This document shows positions 934 through 18,019 of a stretch of 31,744 nucleotides of DNA, piece by piece. Origin of the DNA: a virus; the IMG/VR virus record IMGVR_UViG_3300010885_041112, positions 1 to 31,744 of that record, one strand, 5' to 3'. The notes beneath the pieces were generated by a model. That model did no database searches, was not told where the DNA came from, and saw only the letters and a list, made by a program, of their open reading frames with translations. Position 1 is the first letter of the stretch; every line of letters begins with the position of its first letter. A program made the position numbers and the translations under genes.

Positions 934-1473
934 ATGAAAACACTTTTTACACTACTATTTTCATTTCTTTTTATTTCATTTTCTGTCGCAAAAACAAATA
1001 AACACTATGGAACAATAAAATCACAAAAACTCTACGAAAGTATTGAAAAGTACTCAGATGAGTATAACGTTCCCAAACACATCGCGTATAATATCGCATA
1101 CATGGAAACTGGTTATAGAGGACCGAACCATAATAACTACAACCCACACAGAAGATCAAGATGTGGAGCGGTAGGACCAATGCAAATCATACCCCGATAC
1201 GCAAAAAAGTTAGAAAAGAAAGTAACAAACAAAATTCTAATGTATGATATTGATAAGAATGTAAGAATATCAATGAAGATGTTAAAAATTCATTACTTAA
1301 AATATCGATCTTGGGATAAAGCGGTTGCCTGTTATCACAAAGGAAACCCAAAATCAAACAAATACTCAAGGTTTGTTACAACTAATTACGACTATGATCG
1401 TAAATGGCGTCGGTCCAAACGGATTGATTACCCGAAATGTGATACGACAGAAATAATATTAGCAAGTAAATGA
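934..1473 (+). CDS. Secreted SLT-type lytic transglycosylase
   Basis: A 179-residue protein with a clear signal peptide (Lys at 2, hydrophobic 4-17, likely cut after SVA near residue 19), so it is exported. The mature part has SLT lysozyme-fold landmarks: AYMETG with the catalytic Glu at 58, GAVGPMQI near residue 80, and ACYHKG near residue 130. Such enzymes cleave the glycan strand of peptidoglycan between MurNAc and GlcNAc. In a phage it may act in lysis or in opening the wall at entry; a signal peptide favours periplasmic lysis. It converges on the leftward lysis operon, with a shared hairpin terminator. The stop codon is the first base triplet of a TGAAAA repeat tract. Confidence 0.8.
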   Translation: MKTLFTLLFSFLFISFSVAKTNKHYGTIKSQKLYESIEKYSDEYNVPKHIAYNIAYMETGYRGPNHNNYNPHRRSRCGAVGPMQIIPRYAKKLEKKVTNKILMYDIDKNVRISMKMLKIHYLKYRSWDKAVACYHKGNPKSNKYSRFVTTNYDYDRKWRRSKRIDYPKCDTTEIILASK

Positions 1474-1543: not shown

Positions 1544-2218
1544 TTAAACTAAATCATAAACTCTATAACGTTTTTTAATTCTATAACCATCTTTTTTAGC
1601 CATCCTAACTAAATTATCTTTAACTCCTAAATATTTTGCAAGTTCTTTAGAATTTATAAAAATTTTTTCATCATTAGTTTCTAAATCAACAACAATTAGT
1701 GGTTTTTTACTATTAGATATTTTTTGTTTATTCAAATACTCATCATTTAAGAATTTACCACCATAATTGGGATTATTAACGCCTTTACTAGCTTCAGATA
1801 TTTTTTTCAAGGAGTCTTCTGAATGTTTTTTACCAAAAAAACCATTATTCACACCTTTAGATTTATCTGACATTATTTTAATAGATTCCATTGAGTGTAT
1901 TTTTTTCTTATCATTGGTACTAGTATAGTGACAATTAAGACCATCAGTTACTGAATTAAAGAATTCCTGCCAATATCTTTCTCTTTCGTATAACAACTCC
2001 AAGTCACATAATTCTAAAATTGTAATTTTGTGTGACTCTTCACCATATTTACTCAATGAGTTGAATATTTTTCTTTGTCCCTTAATACGATTTTTATTGA
2101 GGTAGTAACTACATCTTATCTTCAAGTTAATTGCTTCTCCAATATAAATTTTATTGGTTGGTGAAGTTATCATATAGATACCTGACTCCTCGGGAAATTC
2201 TTTAATTTGTTCTTTCAT
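1544..2218 (-). CDS. GIY-YIG homing-type endonuclease
   Basis: A 224-residue protein. GIY appears at residues 14-16 (SGIYMI) and YIG near residue 25 (KIYIGEA), with the usual Arg (LKIRC) and a downstream Glu-rich helix (ERERYWQEFF). Next come two NUMOD3-like Asn/Gly motifs (NNGFFGKKHSE and NNPNYGGK), and then a C-terminal helix-turn-helix-like DNA-binding region (SKELAKYLGVKDNLVRMA). This is the layout of phage-borne, site-specific nicking or cutting nucleases such as the SegA/I-TevI group. It is free-standing, not in an intron. Its ATG overlaps the stop of the upstream lysis gene by one base (TAATG), so it is probably translated by re-initiation from the lysis transcript. Confidence 0.85.
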   Translation of the reverse strand: MKEQIKEFPEESGIYMITSPTNKIYIGEAINLKIRCSYYLNKNRIKGQRKIFNSLSKYGEESHKITILELCDLELLYERERYWQEFFNSVTDGLNCHYTSTNDKKKIHSMESIKIMSDKSKGVNNGFFGKKHSEDSLKKISEASKGVNNPNYGGKFLNDEYLNKQKISNSKKPLIVVDLETNDEKIFINSKELAKYLGVKDNLVRMAKKDGYRIKKRYRVYDLV

Positions 2219-2808
2219 TATTTAATGTCACTACTTTCAATTAAAGTATATGTGAATGAGTTAGAGTGTTTATCTCTAGCATTTCTCATAATACCCATAA
2301 ACTCATTAAAATCAATCTCTTTTTTAAACACCTGGCAACCTTCCGACCACGAGTTGATTAGAGTTGAGTCAACCCCAGCTTTATGAATGTTAATACCAAA
2401 AACCCCTTCTTGGATTTTGTTTTCATCGTATTGCATGTCTTTATCCGCATCACGATAAACTTTTACGTTCTTAGCCTGTCTTAACGCCTCATACTTACCT
2501 TGATGTAATCCAATCATGTGGGATCCTCTATATTGACCCTCAACCAATCTTGCAACACCTGCTGCGTTATGGTACTCTAACATCGCCTTTCTACCAGGAT
2601 CAGTGGTAATAACCCATTCATGGTATTTCCATTGACCTCCAAGTTTATATGATACTGTGATAGTATCATCAAACGCATTGGTAACTTTATCACCTGTTGC
2701 AGAATTTCTAACTCCAACGATATTAACATCGTAATCAGTATCAGAATCAAACCATTTATATCCTTTTGATTCAACCGCCTTTTGAATTTTCTCTCTACTG
2801 TACAACAT
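2218..2808 (-). CDS. L,D-transpeptidase (YkuD)-like peptidoglycan enzyme
   Basis: A 196-residue protein without a signal peptide. Its C-terminal half has the YkuD-type active-site layout: GINIH with His142, then SEGC with Ser155 and the putative nucleophile Cys158. The first 130 residues are not recognised. Known family members make or cut peptidoglycan cross-links. Directly downstream of a holin gene (TAATG overlap), the likeliest role is endolysin, released through the holin. This is inferred from context: a transpeptidase fold used as a lysin is plausible but unproven. An alternative is modification of the host wall during infection. Confidence 0.65.
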   Translation of the reverse strand: MLYSREKIQKAVESKGYKWFDSDTDYDVNIVGVRNSATGDKVTNAFDDTITVSYKLGGQWKYHEWVITTDPGRKAMLEYHNAAGVARLVEGQYRGSHMIGLHQGKYEALRQAKNVKVYRDADKDMQYDENKIQEGVFGINIHKAGVDSTLINSWSEGCQVFKKEIDFNEFMGIMRNARDKHSNSFTYTLIESSDIK

Positions 2809-7207: not shown

Positions 7208-7501
7208 ATGAGACTTAAAGATTTATGTACATTTTCGGTGAATAATCCCGATGCTGATTTTTGGTTAATCCGTAAAGGATCTGCCGATGTTGTTGGAACC
7301 CCAACTAAAGAATTCTCACCAGAACATATTGGAGTGAAGATAGATAGAACCGACATTTTAGTCCCCGATTATTTATACTACGTTTTTCAATACTTAGTAA
7401 TGTCAGGTAGAATAAAAGCATTGTCTCACGGTACTACTAACCTACAAAATATCAGAATCTCCGACATTGGTAACATTCCTGTAGGTACTGATAAAGAATA
7501 A
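7208..7501 (+). CDS. HsdS-like target-recognition fragment
   Basis: A 97-residue protein that looks like part of a type I restriction specificity subunit (HsdS). DILVPDYLYYVFQYL, then SGRIKALSHGTTNLQNI, then RISDIGNIPV follow the order seen at the end of a target-recognition domain: a strand, the G-x-x-x-N-I contact segment, and a conserved I-x-x-IPV exit. A full HsdS has two such domains joined by long helices, about 400 residues. Here only half of one remains and no helicase or methylase is nearby. It may be a recruited DNA-binding protein or an anti-restriction decoy. Resemblance only; function is inferred. Confidence 0.55.
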   Translation: MRLKDLCTFSVNNPDADFWLIRKGSADVVGTPTKEFSPEHIGVKIDRTDILVPDYLYYVFQYLVMSGRIKALSHGTTNLQNIRISDIGNIPVGTDKE

Positions 7502-8107: not shown

Positions 8108-8845
8108 TTACGCATTTAGTTGTAATGTCTTTGTAGATTGGATCGTATGGTTCATTAGTTTTCTTTTGAATAAAGGTAACAAAGAATTCTCTATGGGTAA
8201 ATTTTGGGATGAGATACATTCAAATATCGGAAACTTTGAATCAGATATTTGATCTATCAATTTTGAATACCTGTCAGATTGTTCTCCCTTATATATTCTC
8301 TCAACATCACATTTGGTTTCCTCGGCATCTTGTCTAATCTTTTTGATTGAATATTTCCAAATGTAGTTTTCTTTATTGAAAATGTCTTGATAGATAAAGA
8401 ACCCAGCTCCGAAATAAACGTGATCCCCATTCTTGATTGGATTAGTTGCAACTGACTGGTAACCGATCTCCCATACAGATTTTGCAACCACAAAATATTC
8501 TTTTAATTTCTCAAGAGCCGTTACCGCACTAACCCTAATGTCTTTATATTCTTTGTCTGTGAATTTTTTTCTACTTTTGACATTCTTAATCTCAAATAAC
8601 ATTATCTCATCGTCAGGAGTAGTAAATGTCTTATCCAAACCTAATAATAAACCATCTTCAATATATGCCCGACAAACCGCTAAATGTAATGCTAATTCTG
8701 AAAAATATGGATAAATCTCACCTCGACTTAATGCATCTTCAACCTTTTTGATAAATGACATAATGATATACTCATTATATTCAACATCAACCGGCTTTCT
8801 CAAAAACCAATCCGTCGGCATTAACAATTTTATTTCTTTTTCCAT
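8108..8845 (-). CDS. Conserved-looking phage protein of unknown function
   Basis: About 245 residues, beginning MEKEIKLLMPTDWFL. I prefer the ATG at 8845, with GGAGA just upstream, over the ATG at 8869. It is mostly helical. Segments such as EYIIMSFIKKVEDALSRGEI and IYPYFSELALHLAVC recall a recurring uncharacterised family in T4-like phages. The part near residues 75-110 contains DDEIMLFEIKNVKSRKKF. No catalytic motif is recognised. It follows the 600-residue WCT protein after 32 nt. Confidence 0.55.
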   Translation of the reverse strand: MEKEIKLLMPTDWFLRKPVDVEYNEYIIMSFIKKVEDALSRGEIYPYFSELALHLAVCRAYIEDGLLLGLDKTFTTPDDEIMLFEIKNVKSRKKFTDKEYKDIRVSAVTALEKLKEYFVVAKSVWEIGYQSVATNPIKNGDHVYFGAGFFIYQDIFNKENYIWKYSIKKIRQDAEETKCDVERIYKGEQSDRYSKLIDQISDSKFPIFECISSQNLPIENSLLPLFKRKLMNHTIQSTKTLQLNA

Positions 8846-8877
8846 ACTCTCCAAAAATAAACATAACATTCATATTG

Positions 8878-10680
8878 TCAATTATACCTGAAAATACTGA
8901 ATTCTGTATCTAAATAATCTTCTTCATTTACAACACCATCATAAGGAGCCATAACTTCAACACCATCAGTATCAACAACACCCTGTGCAACCTCATCAGC
9001 ATCAACGTAGTCACTAATTTTGAAGTCATACTCTTTGAGGAACCCGAGAGGATCACTCATTGCATCATCAACTAATTCATCAATCTTTTCTTCAATCATA
9101 TCATCAGGATAATCACCATCAGGGTTTTCTTTAATATCCTCAATCTCATATTCCAAATCACTGATTTCACTCTCTAAATCACTAATTTGACTTTCAATAT
9201 CATCAATACTATCTTGATCCCATTCATCATCATCTCTACCTTCCAGTTCTTCTAATTCTTCTTTCAGGTTTGAAATGGATTCTCTTTTATCCTCAATTTG
9301 AGCTTCAATACTATTTATTGCCTCTTCTTGGTTTCTTGATAATTCTTTATCAGATTCATCAAAATATGAATCGGGATCATCATAAACCCAACTATTATAT
9401 ATTTCACGAGCAGTGTCCCTAACTTTATCTTCATCAATATAATCCGACAAAAAAGATTCATTAAACCCTTCTAAACCCATATCATCAATGAGACCTTTCT
9501 GATATTCTACCGCAGCTTCTTCAATTTCACTAGTTAAACCAACAACCCATTCTTGAGAACTTTCAAGAATTTCAAACACCTTCAACCCATAAAAGCCATA
9601 ACTCGTCGGTATAAGGTAATAAATGTCAGGTGTTTCCAAGTACTCGGAAATAAGTTCATCTATCTCATCAATTCTCTCTTCAATTTCAGATTCACGTTCC
9701 TCTCCCACACCAGATGATAATTCATCATTTAATTCATCTCTTTCATTTCTAATACGATAATATTCTAAAATTTCATCTTCATCATGACCATCAAATTCAC
9801 CATTATTAACCAAATACAAATATAGAGCCCAAGCATATTCCGCCTCACCATCTTTCACACCATATTCAAAATAATTATTTTGTCTTCGTTCATCAGCTTC
9901 CTCCATTTTTTGTCGGATAATATTTCGTTGTCTTTCTCGTTCAATTCTTTCCTTCTCCTCTCTTCGTCTTTTTTCATCCGCAAATATCTCAAGTTCGTTT
10001 GGATATTTTGATTTCACATATTCATCAATCTTCTCTAAGATGCCATTTAAATAATCAGTACCAATTAACCAACCTTCATTGAAGCTGTTATCAGGTGCAT
10101 CGTAAAACTCGTCTTTACCTCTTTCAAAACCATAAACATATGCAACTTTGTAAAACTTATCAGATGTTGGTTTTTTCTTATCCAAGAAATAAAATAACTT
10201 ACCCTCATTATTGTATTTGTTAAAGTGACTTGAGGAATCTTTAGACGCTGTACACCACTTAGTACCCTTACCATAATAACAGGACGCTTCGTATGTATAA
10301 GGAGCAACAACCGTAAAATTTTCATCATCATATACCACATCAGAACCCTCAACAGTTTCAACCGTTCTTCTAACCCTATTTTGATATTCATCCAAAGTAT
10401 TCAATAGGTCCTCAATACTTTGATATTTTTCAATTTCTTTTCTTTCCAATTTATTAGATACCTCATAAAACCTATTCAACATAACGTTTAACTTCTCCAA
10501 AGCACCATCAAAATTAGTTGGGTCCAAAACATTACCCAACCACATAAGATACTTGTTATTACCTGGTAAATCTTTAGATAACTCAATAATCTGTGAAAGT
10601 TGATTCTGAGAAAACTTACTTGCAAACTTCTTAGCAAAGTCCTCAACCCTACCTTCCTGTAATAAATTCATAAATTTCAT
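8878..10680 (-). CDS. WCT-motif protein with long acidic coiled coil
   Basis: A 600-residue acidic protein. Start taken as ATG at 10680; a TTG lies two codons upstream. Layout: tag-like N-terminus MKFMNLLQEGRVEDF; helical region to about 105; a WCT core at about 120-200 (VVAPYTYEASCYYG, then KGTKWCTASKD with WCTA at 142-145, then LFYFLDKKKPTSDKFYKVA); a charged helix (RRREEKERIERERQ); acidic helical segments; a heptad-type acidic coiled coil at about 455-520; and a C-terminal tail with YDGVV. The core also occurs in the two LRR proteins at 14232-17995. Conserved Cys, Trp and Thr suggest a binding or catalytic site, activity unknown. Promoter at 10736-10743. Confidence 0.65.
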   Translation of the reverse strand: MKFMNLLQEGRVEDFAKKFASKFSQNQLSQIIELSKDLPGNNKYLMWLGNVLDPTNFDGALEKLNVMLNRFYEVSNKLERKEIEKYQSIEDLLNTLDEYQNRVRRTVETVEGSDVVYDDENFTVVAPYTYEASCYYGKGTKWCTASKDSSSHFNKYNNEGKLFYFLDKKKPTSDKFYKVAYVYGFERGKDEFYDAPDNSFNEGWLIGTDYLNGILEKIDEYVKSKYPNELEIFADEKRRREEKERIERERQRNIIRQKMEEADERRQNNYFEYGVKDGEAEYAWALYLYLVNNGEFDGHDEDEILEYYRIRNERDELNDELSSGVGEERESEIEERIDEIDELISEYLETPDIYYLIPTSYGFYGLKVFEILESSQEWVVGLTSEIEEAAVEYQKGLIDDMGLEGFNESFLSDYIDEDKVRDTAREIYNSWVYDDPDSYFDESDKELSRNQEEAINSIEAQIEDKRESISNLKEELEELEGRDDDEWDQDSIDDIESQISDLESEISDLEYEIEDIKENPDGDYPDDMIEEKIDELVDDAMSDPLGFLKEYDFKISDYVDADEVAQGVVDTDGVEVMAPYDGVVNEEDYLDTEFSIFRYN

Positions 10681-10690
10681 AAACAATAAT

Positions 10691-10764
10691 TTACAATAAA
10701 TATTTAATAATTTTTTTAACTCAATTATCTTTCAACAAAGATAGTGAAAAACTATTTATTGTAA
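10691..10764. repeat. 12-bp inverted repeat spanning a divergent promoter region
   Basis: TTACAATAAATA (10691-10702) and its exact complement TATTTATTGTAA (10753-10764) face each other. Between them lies a second palindrome, TATCTTT-CAAC-AAAGATA (10726-10743). Each outer arm contains a TATTTAT box pointing at the adjacent gene, so the symmetry probably reflects paired divergent promoters. Confidence 0.6.
10736..10743 (-). promoter_or_regulatory. TATCTTTG -10 box for the WCT coiled-coil protein gene
   Basis: Minus-strand TATCTTTG, inside the 10726-10743 palindrome. Predicted leader about 49 nt to the ATG at 10680. The -35 region is not a good TTTG match. A TATTTAT box at 10696-10702 lies closer to the gene. 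Confidence 0.45.
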
Positions 10765-12859: not shown

Positions 12860-13132
12860 TCATAGATTAAAATGTTTTTTAATGATCTCAATACCTTCAT
12901 CTATCTCATTGTAGTCTCGTTCAGGTGCATATAATTTAGCTTGACTATCTTCAGTAATTACCATAAATGCTGGAACAAAGTCATTACCTACCAATTCTTT
13001 AAACATGTTATATTCCGTCTCATTTTCTTCAATGTCAGCATCAACGAATTCAACACCAAGCTCATTTAACTTATCTTTCATTTCCACACAGAACGGACAA
13101 CCTTCCATAGTGAATAGTACTAAATTATCCAT
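12860..13132 (-). CDS. Glutaredoxin-like protein
   Basis: About 90 residues of one thioredoxin-fold domain with the CPFC redox motif (Cys12 and Cys15) and a cis-Pro loop (DFVPAFMV). Its likely role is to reduce disulphides, for example in ribonucleotide reductase, using glutathione or a thioredoxin reductase; Bacteroidetes often lack glutathione, so the electron donor is uncertain. ATG at 13132 shares one base with the thioredoxin stop (TGATG); a GTG one codon upstream is possible. Last gene of the redox operon, followed by a terminator. Confidence 0.85.
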   Translation of the reverse strand: MDNLVLFTMEGCPFCVEMKDKLNELGVEFVDADIEENETEYNMFKELVGNDFVPAFMVITEDSQAKLYAPERDYNEIDEGIEIIKKHFNL

Positions 13133-13437
13133 CACATAACCATTTTACCTACGTTTAGTAATTCTTCCCTCTGTAATACACCACTTTTTGAGAATACCTC
13201 ATCACCTGACTTATACGCCTTAATCGTCGGTACTCCACGAATACCTAAAGTTTTTACAAAATCAATATCACTATCAATATCAAACGTATAAAAATTAACT
13301 TCAGTCATCTCATGACTAACTGATTCATAAATAGGTTTCAACACCTTACATGGACCACACCAAGTACCCATGAAATCAACAACCATTGATTCCCCATCTT
13401 GGATTTTTTGTTTTAACTGATCAGCCGTTATTTCCAT
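13132..13437 (-). CDS. Thioredoxin
   Basis: A 101-residue thioredoxin with the classical WCGPC active site at residues 26-30 and the cis-Pro segment RGVPTIKAY near residues 70-78. Full length for a thioredoxin. Phage thioredoxins serve ribonucleotide reductase, or occasionally DNA polymerase processivity as in T7. It overlaps the upstream 114-residue gene by 17 nt and the glutaredoxin by 1-4 nt, so the three are translationally linked. Expressed from the TATCTTTG promoter at 13935. Confidence 0.9.
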   Translation of the reverse strand: MEITADQLKQKIQDGESMVVDFMGTWCGPCKVLKPIYESVSHEMTEVNFYTFDIDSDIDFVKTLGIRGVPTIKAYKSGDEVFSKSGVLQREELLNVGKMVM

Positions 13438-13972: not shown

Positions 13973-14224
13973 TTAATTAAGACACATCAATCCAAATTTT
14001 GTTCTAAAAAAAGGACCAATCATTGATGTTATTACATCTAACATCTGATTTCTAGTCATCTCATATTCTTTACCATTATCCAAGTTATTATAAACCTTAT
14101 CCCTAATTCTAGAGAAAAAAAGGGACTTGTCTAAGTCCCCTATTAGTGTTTTTAATTGTTCGGGATTATTATTGAAAAAATTAAACATGTTTTTCAAATA
14201 AATCTCAACATCAACGTTTTTCAT
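13973..14224 (-). CDS. Unknown 83-residue protein containing an internal terminator
   Basis: Starts MKNVDVEIYLKNMF at the ATG at 14224; a TTG two codons upstream is less likely. A helical N-terminal part (FFNNNPEQLKTLIGDLDK) is followed by FSRIRDKVYNNLDNGKEYEM and a final helix. No family assigned. The codons for GDLDKSLFFS form a canonical intrinsic terminator on the coding strand (14114-14139), so full-length message would need read-through or antitermination. It begins 7 nt after the LRR protein stop. Confidence 0.5.
   Translation of the reverse strand: MKNVDVEIYLKNMFNFFNNNPEQLKTLIGDLDKSLFFSRIRDKVYNNLDNGKEYEMTRNQMLDVITSMIGPFFRTKFGLMCLN
14114..14139 (-). terminator. Intrinsic terminator inside a coding sequence
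   Basis: Minus-strand GGGACTT, loop AGAC, AAGTCCC, then seven T. It has textbook form but lies about 85-110 nt into the 83-residue ORF, downstream of the two LRR genes. Confidence 0.65.
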
Positions 14225-14231
14225 AATCAAA

Positions 14232-16103
14232 TTATTCTATATCAAGGAACGCTGAGTTATTTGGATTTTCAAACCTTTCTTTAACTTCAGGAGATATCAC
14301 GAGATTAGGACTACAGTTTGATAATACCAATGCTTGTAGATTAGGTAATTTAGCAATAAATGGTGGAATAAAATCAAGATTAGGACAGTCATAAAATGAT
14401 AAAAAGTTAAGTGATTCCATTCTACCAATCACTTCAGGAATTTCACTAAAACAATTTTTGAAACAAAGAGATCGCATATTTTTTAATTCTGAAAACTCTT
14501 CAGGTAATACAATTTCAATAGGTGTGTTAGATTCGTTAAAAAAGTCAAGATTCTCGATAGTTTTAGGGATTTGATTGAATATTTCAGGAAATCCGTACAA
14601 ATCAATGAATTTACTAAGATTGTTGTTGGGATATTTAATAATCATCTCTTGTGAATTACCAGGTGTTTCTCCTATTTGGTTTCTTAAATCAGATTTACGT
14701 TCATTCTTTAATCCTTTTAATATTGGAGTATTTAATAAGGCAATGTCAGCATTTGTTAAATCCTTCAATGATTTATTTTTAAGACTTTCTTTTTTCTTAC
14801 TAATATAATAAGATAAACTAGAACTGCCTAGTGAAGAAATCATTTCTTTGGTTAAAATGTGACCTAATGCAATATATTTCTTTTGTAAGTTATCCGTTAG
14901 TTTGGCAAATTGTGCATCTTTAAGTTCTTTAGATGATACTTCCATCCAAATTTCAACTTCATTTTCACTACCTAATTCTTCTATAGGATTATCAGTATTA
15001 AGATTAAAATTTCGATACCTCCTAGCCAATTCCTGTTCTGAATCAGTTAATGGATTTGGTTTAAAAATATGTTTAAGATCTTTTAATTTAGGAATCTTAT
15101 TAACGATTTGTTCCCAAGGTAAGTTTTGGTGACCAGAATATTCGCCATCATTCGTACCATCAGCAAGTGCCATACTACCTCTTGGATCCACTAAAATTAC
15201 AACCGCATAATCATCATCCGAAAATGGTTTATCACCATCTATGATATAATAAAGAGTCCTTTCACGATCTAAACGATAATTGTAATACAGATTTGACCCT
15301 CCTTCTCTTGAAGTACACCATCTTCTACCATTTTTTAATTTAATACAATCAGGTTTATCCCTTGGTGCGTATATTTCAAGATTAGGTACTTCAGGTTCAC
15401 CCTTAGCTGGATAAACCATAGGAATATCACCATATTTTGTGTTAGAAGATTTTTCAGAATATCCTTTCTTAGCCTCAATACCATCAACAATGTGTTCAAT
15501 ATCTTGAAATGATAAATTCTTAAGTGGTGGTGTGTTAACTGGTACTTCAGTAATATTGTTTGTATAACTATTAGCATAAAACTGAATAATTTCATCAGAA
15601 GTCTCTGGAAATTTTTTCTTCATCGCAGTTATCAATAACTTCAAATAGTTTTTATTCAAAAACTCAACAATCTGAAGATAAGTCGACTTACCTAAATTCA
15701 TTTTATCTTTAGGTACTTCACCACTAATATCCATTAGTTGTCTAATCGAACGTCTAAGTGCCGCATCCTCAACTGGTGGTTCTCCAGCCTTTTTAGAATT
15801 ATCCTTTAATTGTGTAAAAAGATCTTTGGACGTTTTAGTTGATTCTTTACCTGATAAGATTTTTGAAAGTTCGGAATAGGTTAATCTAAACAAATCTCGT
15901 TTTTCCACAGGTAATTGATTTTTATATTTCTCGAACTCATTAACTTTATCGATAATATCCTGATCTTTAAGATTGCTATCTTCTTTTTTGAATTTGTCGA
16001 TTAACTGTTGAAGGACTTTCTTACTTACCTCCATTACTAACTTACTATCGCGTTTTCTTACATCTTCAACAATTACTGAAGATAAAACATTAACTAATTT
16101 CAT
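14232..16103 (-). CDS. WCT-core leucine-rich-repeat protein, copy B
   Basis: A 623-residue protein of the same length as copy A upstream. Layout: amphipathic N-terminus MKLVNVLSSVIVEDV; helical Lys/Glu-rich region to about 200; WCT core at about 243-345 (LEIYAP, then CIKLKNGRRWCTSREGG with WCTS at 262-265, LYYIIDGDKPFSDDDYAVVI, then LADGTN); helices at 385-480; three to four leucine-rich repeats at about 515-605 (IVLPEEFSELKNM, IPEVIGRMESL, IPPFIAKLPNL). LRRs usually bind proteins. No signal peptide or transmembrane helix. Likely cotranscribed with copy A after a 20-nt gap. Activity unknown. Confidence 0.7.
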   Translation of the reverse strand: MKLVNVLSSVIVEDVRKRDSKLVMEVSKKVLQQLIDKFKKEDSNLKDQDIIDKVNEFEKYKNQLPVEKRDLFRLTYSELSKILSGKESTKTSKDLFTQLKDNSKKAGEPPVEDAALRRSIRQLMDISGEVPKDKMNLGKSTYLQIVEFLNKNYLKLLITAMKKKFPETSDEIIQFYANSYTNNITEVPVNTPPLKNLSFQDIEHIVDGIEAKKGYSEKSSNTKYGDIPMVYPAKGEPEVPNLEIYAPRDKPDCIKLKNGRRWCTSREGGSNLYYNYRLDRERTLYYIIDGDKPFSDDDYAVVILVDPRGSMALADGTNDGEYSGHQNLPWEQIVNKIPKLKDLKHIFKPNPLTDSEQELARRYRNFNLNTDNPIEELGSENEVEIWMEVSSKELKDAQFAKLTDNLQKKYIALGHILTKEMISSLGSSSLSYYISKKKESLKNKSLKDLTNADIALLNTPILKGLKNERKSDLRNQIGETPGNSQEMIIKYPNNNLSKFIDLYGFPEIFNQIPKTIENLDFFNESNTPIEIVLPEEFSELKNMRSLCFKNCFSEIPEVIGRMESLNFLSFYDCPNLDFIPPFIAKLPNLQALVLSNCSPNLVISPEVKERFENPNNSAFLDIE

Positions 16104-16123
16104 ATTTTTTTATTTTAATCAAA

Positions 16124-17995
16124 TTATCTGATATAAATGAACTTTTTGCTATTTGGATCTTCAATCATTTGTTTAACTTCAGGAGATAACACGAGATTAG
16201 GACTACATTTTTCTATTACCAATCCACGTAGTTCAGGTAATTTAGCAATAAATGGTGGAATAAAATCAAGATTAGGACATTCATTAAATATTAAAAAGCG
16301 AACTGACTCCATTTTACCGATCACTTCAGGAACTTCACTAAGACAATTTTTGAAATTAAGATTTTCAATGTTTTTTAATTCTGAAAACTCTTCAGGTAAT
16401 ACAATTTCAATAGGAGAGTTAGATTCATTTTCAAACTCAAAAGTCGTAATAGTTTTAGGGATTTGATTAAATATTTCAGAAAATCCGTATAAATCAATGA
16501 ATTTACTAAGATTGTCGTTGGGATATTTAATGGTCATAATCATTGGATTATTTGGTGTTTGTCCTATTTGATTTTTTAATTCAGATTTACGTTCGTTCTT
16601 TAATCCTTTTAACATTGGAGAATTTAACAAATAAATGTCCGCATCTGTCAAATCTTTCAATAATCTAGTCTTAAGTTCTTCTTTTCTCTTACCAATATAA
16701 TAAGATAAAACAGAACTATTCATTGAGGCAACCATTCCTGCGGTTAATACATAACCAATAGCAATATATTTCTTTTGTAAGTCATCCGTTAGTTTAGCAA
16801 ATTGTGCATCATTAAGCTTTTCACCTGAAACCTCAATCCAAATCGCCGCATCATTTTCACTACCTAATTCTTCTATAGGATTATCAGTTCTAAGTTCTTT
16901 ATTTGCATACTTTCTGAGTAATTCCGTTTCCTGACTAGATAAAGGTTCTGATTTAAAAATATGTTTAAGATTTTTTAATTTAGGAATCTTATTAACGATT
17001 TGTTCCCAAGGTAAAATGGTCATACCCGCATAACTCCCAGTATTTGTTCCATCAGCCAATCTCATCCCTCCTTGTTTATCAACCAAGATAACGAACGCAA
17101 AATCAACATCCGAAAATGGTTTATCATAATCAATTCCATAATAAATAGTTAACTCATTAGATAAACGATAATAATAATAACGATTGGGACCACCTTCGTA
17201 TGATGTACACCATCCTCTACCATTTTTTAATCTAATACAATCAGATTTTCCTGTTGGTTTGTAAATTTCCAAATTAGGCACATCTGAATCACCTTCAACT
17301 GGATACACTTTAGGGATATCATCATAACTTTTAGTTGATTCTTTTTCTGAGTAACCTTTTTTAGACTCAATACCATCAACAATGTGTTCAATATCTTGAA
17401 ATGATAAGTTCTTAAGTGGTGGTGTGTCAATAGGTATTTCAGCCGCATTACTATAATAGCTATTAGCATAGAATTGGACGGTATCGTTTGATAAGTCTGG
17501 GAATTTTTTCTTCATCGCAGTTATCAATAACTTCAAATAGTTTTTATTCAAAAACTCAACAATCTGAAGATAAGTTGCCCTGCCTAAATTCATTTTATCT
17601 TTAGGTACTTCACCACTAATATCCATTAGTTGTCTAATTACTCGTTTAAGAGCCATATTCTCAACTGGTGGTTCTCCAGCTTTTCTAGAATTATCCTTTA
17701 ATTGTGTAAAAAGATCTTTAGATGTTTTAGTTGATTCTTTACCTGATAAAATATTAGATAGTTCCGAATAACTTAATTGGAATAAGTCTCTCTTATCAAC
17801 AGGTAATTGATTTTTGTATTTCTCAAAGTCATCAACCTTGTCAATTATGTCTTGATCTTTTAATGTGTTATCTTCTTTTTTGAATTTATCAATCAACTGT
17901 TGAAGGACTTTCTTACTTACCTCCATTACTAACTTACTATCGTGTTTTCTTACATCTTCAACAATTACTGAAGATAAAACATTAACTAATTTCAT
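16124..17995 (-). CDS. WCT-core leucine-rich-repeat protein, copy A
   Basis: The promoter-proximal paralogue, 623 residues, same architecture as copy B: amphipathic N-terminus, helical domain, WCT core (LRLKNGRG-type segment here CIRLKNGRGWCTSYEGG, WCTS at 262-265), KPFSDVDFAFVI, LADGTNTG, and C-terminal LRRs (ENLNFKNCLSEVPEVIG, VRFLIFNECPNLDF). Differences from copy B cluster in the LRR solvent-exposed positions and in the residues right after WCTS. That is consistent with different targets for the two copies. A TATTTAT box lies 17 nt upstream. Function not known. Confidence 0.7.
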   Translation of the reverse strand: MKLVNVLSSVIVEDVRKHDSKLVMEVSKKVLQQLIDKFKKEDNTLKDQDIIDKVDDFEKYKNQLPVDKRDLFQLSYSELSNILSGKESTKTSKDLFTQLKDNSRKAGEPPVENMALKRVIRQLMDISGEVPKDKMNLGRATYLQIVEFLNKNYLKLLITAMKKKFPDLSNDTVQFYANSYYSNAAEIPIDTPPLKNLSFQDIEHIVDGIESKKGYSEKESTKSYDDIPKVYPVEGDSDVPNLEIYKPTGKSDCIRLKNGRGWCTSYEGGPNRYYYYRLSNELTIYYGIDYDKPFSDVDFAFVILVDKQGGMRLADGTNTGSYAGMTILPWEQIVNKIPKLKNLKHIFKSEPLSSQETELLRKYANKELRTDNPIEELGSENDAAIWIEVSGEKLNDAQFAKLTDDLQKKYIAIGYVLTAGMVASMNSSVLSYYIGKRKEELKTRLLKDLTDADIYLLNSPMLKGLKNERKSELKNQIGQTPNNPMIMTIKYPNDNLSKFIDLYGFSEIFNQIPKTITTFEFENESNSPIEIVLPEEFSELKNIENLNFKNCLSEVPEVIGKMESVRFLIFNECPNLDFIPPFIAKLPELRGLVIEKCSPNLVLSPEVKQMIEDPNSKKFIYIR

Positions 17996-18012: not shown

Positions 18013-18019
18013 ATAAATA
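18013..18019 (-). promoter_or_regulatory. TATTTAT box before the LRR gene pair
   Basis: Minus-strand GTATATTTATATTAAAA, 17 nt upstream of the ATG at 17995. It is the only promoter-like element in the 65-nt gap and would drive both paralogues. Confidence 0.4.

Follow-up and report, generated by a model that had tools for sequence, protein, structure and literature searches.

Genes A and B, the subject of this study, lie in tandem on one strand of a 31,744-nucleotide stretch of viral DNA (positions 1 to 31,744 of the IMG/VR record IMGVR_UViG_3300010885_041112), which we refer to throughout as the window. On balance we favour the reading that the two encoded proteins are late products that are directed to the phage head by a capsid-targeting sequence (CTS), packaged there and probably ejected, that their leucine-rich repeats (LRRs) recognize a host factor, and that with two copies in tandem the phage has a second face for recognition. 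In copy A a CTS-like N-terminus is followed by a helical domain, the conserved WCT core, a second helical region and the LRRs; the coordinates of all features are collected in Table 1.

The two genes are adjacent paralogues of equal length, as the first-pass annotation of this DNA had it; both reading frames are intact, and A is the upstream member of the pair on the transcript. The proteins are 75% identical over 622 residues with zero gaps (81.6% at the DNA level). The near identity of the N-termini noticed earlier is borne out (92% identity over residues 1-60, a single mismatch in the first 101 nt), and so is the concentration of divergence in the core, which is 68% identical, and on the LRR surface. 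Synonymous divergence is patchy: the proportion of differing synonymous sites (pS) is ~0.5 in the core and 0.13-0.14 in the LRR region, and it falls to zero over the first 30 codons. The longest stretch that A and B share exactly is 74 nt, exceeding every one of 2000 codon shuffles; patchy pS and long identical tracts together point to gene conversion. Despite gene conversion, the nonsynonymous proportion (pN) exceeds pS in the LRRs.

The LRR positions were classified with the standard LxxLxLxx frame over four repeats, which sets 20 exposed x positions against 77 other LRR positions; the alignment had been inspected before this test was fixed, and the frame is the textbook one. The copies differ at 15 of the 20 exposed strand positions (pN 0.49) and at 10 of the 77 others (pN 0.06). 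Compared with the LRR pS of 0.13, the exposed-position pN yields p = 6e-5 and a pN/pS of ~4; with the rest of the LRR constrained, an even neutral divergence along the gene is excluded. When the frame is shifted by 1-6 residues, the number of differing positions drops from 15 to 3-11. Diversifying selection at exposed LRR strand positions is the classic signature of plant resistance genes, and the A/B sequence pattern fits such selection acting on a binding face. Among orthologues the core is the most constrained region (pN/pS mostly 0.01-0.15) and the LRR region usually the fastest (mostly 0.2-0.57), and the exposed LRR positions have the highest entropy among the sets compared. The earlier idea of a duplicated effector whose targets have diverged thus stands up well as an evolutionary statement, the roles suggested with it (host takeover, superinfection exclusion, counter-defence) being candidates; it was incomplete in missing the likely capsid-targeting propeptide at the N-terminus and the non-equivalence of A and B. 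Because many changes cluster within codons, a diversity-generating retroelement was also considered as the source of the LRR changes; synonymous C/T changes are present, no adenine rule is visible and no reverse transcriptase was seen among the window open reading frames (ORFs) of at least 90 aa, and this candidate was set aside, short of formal exclusion.

The C-terminal LRRs are significant by sequence at residues ~515-606 (phmmer against the PDB, E 2e-11 to LRR receptors; LRR-profile matches are weaker). AlphaFold2, run on the family alignment, returned a mean pLDDT of 81, with 86-95 over residues 515-623 and values below 50 for residues 1-20; the LRR region is confidently predicted as a solenoid, and the LxxLxLxxN repeats that characterize LRR solenoids are present in both sequence and predicted structure. 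The best Foldseek matches of the A/B-family model are LRR structures (probability 1.0), with E only ~0.01 because the model is multi-domain. The likeness of A and B to Leptospira LIC12234 and LIC10831, SHOC2, plant LRR receptors and NLRs is one of LRR motif and fold: with the Leptospira, SHOC2 and plant proteins only the solenoid is in common, and A and B have no NB-ARC, kinase or secretion domain. Matches to Xanthomonas XopAC, XopL and XopAE were rejected as LRR similarity only, far under curated cut-offs. The presence of LRRs, previously regarded as unusual, turned out to be the rule in the A/B clade, where they are the standard family C-terminus.

Relatives were collected from IMG/VR with two degenerate hand-made DNA patterns, which returned 26 and 77 stretches; single-sequence protein scans of viral contigs had given no match, but the DNA patterns did find relatives. 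By phmmer, A/B relatives occur in almost all of the 26 stretches, and most extend into the LRR end. The A/B family comprises at least 24 IMG/VR sequences, with 37-58% identity in the 24-sequence alignment apart from the B copy. A second family (34 aligned sequences) is that of copy C, a third WCT-core protein that the window holds beyond the pair described earlier; a comparison of the A-family and C-family profiles shows homology across the core (probability 95%, E 3e-8). The closest relatives of the window (G001-G004, 59-62% identical to A) have a single A-type copy each, and the A/B tandem is therefore specific to the window lineage, as far as sampled. In G004 (L139 with L113) this homologue is seemingly broken near the LRR end and a second match has an internal stop; the break appears to reflect a frameshift, sequencing error or decay. 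A shorter WCT-LRR paralogue (~440-460 aa) lies beside the A-type gene in G007, G010, G014, G023 and G024, so that paired WCT-LRR genes are a recurrent arrangement. The annotated phage collection contains few relatives, namely in Wroclawvirus jumbo phages, Salicola phage SCTP-2 (several copies), Caulobacter phage CcrBL9 and one 595-kb huge phage. In SCTP-2 (L003, 4876-17820) at least six WCT genes are found in ~13 kb, mostly with near-identical N-termini and differing C-termini; this cluster is an independent expansion of the same kind.

The segments C-x8-WCT[S] (C253, W262-C263) and K-P-F-S-D (residues 292-296) are present in A and B as first described, but the first Cys of the former is invariant within the A/B family only. 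Invariant positions of the 24-sequence alignment include C253, W262, C263, R277, D289 and D306 among others; in the wider WCT set invariance is limited to W and C. A metal site or disulfide at C253/C263 was accordingly rejected, the first Cys being K in PA5oct and I in CcrBL9. Kinship with PcfJ (PF14284, pCF10), suggested by the motif spacing, was also dismissed (hhalign probability 2%, a chance WCTA only). The core corresponds to PHROG 17056 and 28193, which contain it and which 15 of 19 diverse core sequences match; these are profiles without assigned function, and A and B themselves give no direct match. Among ~85,000 bacterial species, a strict core pattern, which overlooks divergent forms, was found in only 2 contigs from metagenome-assembled genomes, so that the WCT module looks essentially viral. 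Against the PADLOC defence models A and B have no match better than E 0.045, and copy C reaches 0.0018 at best, over its coiled coil; none was counted as a defence system. The two copies are not equivalent in this region. With L110 as outgroup, 23 core changes are derived in A and 4 in B. R266 and N275, which all of the other 22 sequences have, are substituted in A, and so is R282 (21/22). B keeps the ancestral core; A may have become specialised or inactive.

The N-terminus of A and B is most likely a capsid-targeting propeptide on a late-expressed head protein. In length (10-20 residues) and in its (L/I)xE-type end it agrees with T4-type targeting sequences, as a sequence motif only; the two candidate cleavage sites in A and B follow VIVE13 and LVME25. 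Similar starts are found on different bodies, MKLLNLLSKNIILE-VSEK in A, MDFLKLIQE-GRVDDF in C and MKFTSILKKVILE-QSRF in a short LRR protein, and also in distant phages, MKVKHITQYLFE-SYKD in SCTP-2 and MKLFEVFTLYE-DKAE in PA5oct. The rule M..[LI]xE is satisfied by 63 of 72 WCT proteins versus 97 of 648 other ORFs, and at a rate of ~6-19% elsewhere in the same proteins; the p-value for the N-terminal rule, 1.6e-36, overstates independence, as the sequences are related. A looser rule covers 90 of the 93 distinct WCT ORFs and reaches five of the six clusters. In these phages the capsid protein has LINE-A, a candidate site of this kind, where its conserved part begins.

Upstream of A and of C stands the element TATTTAT, which precedes 32/32 C-family and 15/18 A-family genes (~1.2-1.3 expected from shuffles). 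In G005, a 190-kb relative with A- and C-type genes, it is also found before the genes for portal, S77 protease and sheath, before one that is core/scaffold-like and before many others in the tail block. We read it, from this distribution, as a candidate late promoter of this T4-type phage clade. Its reverse complement, ATAAATA, falls within the T4 late box TATAAATA; before the structural and WCT genes of G005 (L157-L166), and before A and C in the window, TATTTAT has the inverse orientation relative to that box. The 20-bp gap before B contains no TATTTAT; B is probably co-transcribed with A, and a terminator-like hairpin downstream of B is a possible end of the A-B transcript.

Evidence for a place in the virion comes from relatives. 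The PA5oct homologue EST35_0205, which adjoins the terminase, carries the GenBank note 'structural protein, ESI-MS/MS', and of the WCT genes in G005, at least four in number, one comes directly after that for the major capsid protein. In 6 of 17 records (G005, G008, G009 and G010, A family; G026 and G027) the S77 protease is accompanied by gp23; the others match neither and may be fragments. The host is most likely a member of the Bacteroidetes, by analogy with T4-type lake phages of Bacteroidetes (PMC9723584) and from TAnnTTTG-like promoter spellings in the window.

On these grounds we propose the following course of events. A and B would be late head proteins of a T4-type myovirus, whose N-terminal helix would direct them into the prohead core and be trimmed by the S77 prohead protease after an [LIV]xE site. 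The mature protein, consisting of helical region, WCT core and LRR, would enter the head together with the genome and then probably be ejected into the next cell. There the concave LRR face would bind a protein of the host, for which a defence or restriction factor is the most plausible candidate; the conserved core would perform or scaffold a common activity. In this phage the gene was duplicated in tandem, and the LRR faces would then have diverged under selection, with intermittent gene conversion holding other tracts identical; the outcome would be two recognition specificities from a single late transcript. Of this scheme, the domains, the duplication, the pattern of selection, the CTS-like motif and the common TATTTAT element were observed; late expression, packaging, cleavage, ejection and the binding of a target are inferences.

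Several facts weigh against this proposal. About 15% of other ORFs also fit the CTS-like rule, a small WCT subfamily (L027:734-1882, L032:7578-8528) has no CTS-like start, and TATTTAT is also upstream of 143 of 666 other genes. Neither the window nor its closest relatives G001-G004, all of them fragments, contain head genes, and the T4-type head is for this reason deduced from more distant family members. No virion proteome was found for this phage or any Bacteroidetes relative, and the sole mass-spectrometry support is the GenBank note on one distant homologue, that of PA5oct. Any enzymatic activity of the core is a guess, because no Pfam family matched it and the PDB gave no profile match (best E 0.95) and no structure match.

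The bodies of A and B are new; their logic, by analogy, resembles that of the T4 internal proteins, which have only the targeting sequence in common and whose bodies are highly diverse (PMC3012670). As in IPI, IPII, IPIII and Alt, a short conserved N-terminal sequence ending at a (here putative) protease site is joined to diverging bodies; some phages with this protein family have a T4-type protease and capsid, and the arms-race logic is shared (IPI* inhibits a restriction enzyme). In contrast, no search made here revealed body similarity between the T4 internal proteins and A or B, mature IPI* has 76 residues as opposed to ~600 aa, and A and B differ in having a WCT core and LRRs; we regard them as candidate, not proven, members of this class. 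A second parallel is seen in the head of the giant phage SPN3US, although that phage is of a phiKZ-like lineage: its gp53 and gp54 are paralogues whose N-terminal propeptides are identical and whose bodies have diverged (PMC5694885). PA5oct EST35_0205 and its Wroclawvirus relatives (Paride, Callisto, MIJ3) share with our proteins the CTS-like start, the WCT core and the setting of T4-like jumbo phages, among which Callisto and PA5oct are grouped (PMC11079468), but no LRR is seen in them and the similarity is only N-terminal and core (~25-28% to C). A literature search for phage LRR head proteins found no paper.

The foremost competing explanation, which we consider unlikely, is that A and B are late morphogenesis factors whose LRRs bind phage structural proteins during head or tail assembly, as scaffold or chaperone, so that the LRR changes follow the phage's own partners and not a host target. 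The late-type element is indeed common to head and tail genes, WCT genes lie beside the capsid gene in G005 and beside the terminase in PA5oct, and the protein bodies are rich in helix and coiled coil. However, partners within one virion co-evolve slowly, yet the LRR pN/pS is ~4 between two copies in the same genome, and a single structural partner does not require two differing faces.

A smaller probability still goes to unpackaged late effectors acting inside the producing cell, for example in superinfection exclusion or counter-defence, in which the N-terminal helix would be a membrane or partner anchor. Such proteins could have a diversifying LRR, and [LI]xE occurs near the N-terminus of other proteins of these phages too; but the N-terminal motif and its conservation suit a propeptide better than an anchor, and the PA5oct homologue is annotated as a virion protein.

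That A and B are surface components of the virion (capsid decoration or adsorption), with LRRs that bind the host envelope and a pair that widens host range, seems to us improbable. A receptor-binding role would suit diversifying LRR faces, as would the virion annotation of the PA5oct relative; however, receptor-binding proteins are usually encoded in tail-fibre modules and have no T4-type targeting sequence. A and B belong to a block of their own that also contains thioredoxin and glutaredoxin genes, and the A-type genes of G008 are ~72 kb from the protease and capsid genes. A redundant duplicate of no adaptive meaning, shaped by relaxed constraint, gene conversion and chance, would explain the identical tracts and the loss of family-invariant core residues in A, but it is disfavoured and the least probable of all, since relaxation predicts pN near pS, not a roughly fourfold excess at 20 motif-defined positions with constrained neighbours, and both ORFs are intact.

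If our preferred reading of A and B as head-packaged recognition proteins is true, phages inject LRR proteins that are under diversifying selection, a mirror image of LRR immune receptors, and the LRR face becomes a direct handle on the targeted host factor. With the CTS-like and TATTTAT signatures, candidates for packaging in the head can also be listed easily for the many uncharacterised T4-type Bacteroidetes phages. A wider and more doubtful generalization is that the WCT proteins constitute a previously undescribed class of virion-delivered effectors, in which a conserved core is combined with an exchangeable solenoid (LRR, LRV/HEAT, DUF4116, possibly Marseillevirus ankyrin) whose repeat face is diversified like that of plant NLR/LRR receptors, giving several anti-defence specificities per virion. 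Other repeats are recognized by Pfam on WCT proteins, LRV/HEAT in L103:7159-9261 (5e-30) and DUF4116 in SCTP-2 (L003:8592-9926, 3e-17).

Table 1. Positions in the window of the genes, domains and candidate signals discussed in the text.
Feature	Position	Strand	Basis
Copy A, 623 aa	16124..17995	(-)	ORF call, homologues, AlphaFold model
A propeptide, residues 1-25, capsid-targeting-like, MKLVNVLSSVIVE-DVRKHDSKLVME; two [IV]xE sites are candidates for cleavage	17921..17995	(-)	N-terminus comparison; pLDDT <50 for 1-20
A WCT core, residues 241-330; accelerated in A (R266Y, N275Y, R282L)	17006..17275	(-)	Outgroup and alignment comparison
A LRR solenoid, residues 508-604	16184..16474	(-)	phmmer, AlphaFold, Foldseek
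Copy B, paralogue of 623 aa, follows A after 20 bp	14232..16103	(-)	ORF call, alignment
B residues 1-25, same propeptide; DNA almost identical to A	16029..16103	(-)	Alignment
B WCT core, residues 241-330; near family consensus	15114..15383	(-)	Family alignment
B LRR solenoid, residues 508-604	14292..14582	(-)	phmmer, LRR position comparison
TATTTAT, candidate late promoter element, 17 nt upstream of A	18013..18019	(-)	Element scan
Terminator-like hairpin with T tract, downstream of B, within small downstream ORF	14120..14141	(-)	
Copy C, WCT-core protein of a second family, 600 aa; CTS-like N-terminus MKFMNLLQEGRVEDF, C-terminal coiled coil, LRR absent	8878..10680	(-)	
WCT core of C, ~residues 113-205	10066..10344	(-)	Core comparison, model
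TATTTAT, candidate late promoter element, upstream of C	10696..10702	(-)	Element scan

The length of copy C given in Table 1 holds if the ATG at 10680 is the start. Its model has a pLDDT of 87 and no significant PDB match; among viral structures, matches were obtained with the structural protein of PA5oct, one protein of CcrBL9, one from a siphovirus record (an LRR protein) and two of Marseillevirus LCMAC202, of which one bears an ankyrin-repeat annotation. A Marseillevirus protein with ankyrin annotation (BFVD A0A481Z016) matches a WCT protein by structure.

The gene order A, thioredoxin, C is kept in the window and in G005, and is followed by a gene of 243-253 aa. The protein beside C is encoded at 8108-8869 in the window, where it has no Pfam or PHROG match, and at L166:8152-8883 in G005. 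Between B and C the window has thioredoxin- and glutaredoxin-like genes (13132-13437 and 12860-13135), and a thioredoxin-like gene is found at the matching place in G005. Elsewhere in the window, a 97-aa ORF at 7208-7501 (+) resembles a fragment of a type I restriction specificity subunit, and genes of lysis or peptidoglycan type lie at 934-1473 (+) and 2218-2808 (-), the former transglycosylase-like and the latter phrog_3000/endolysin-like.

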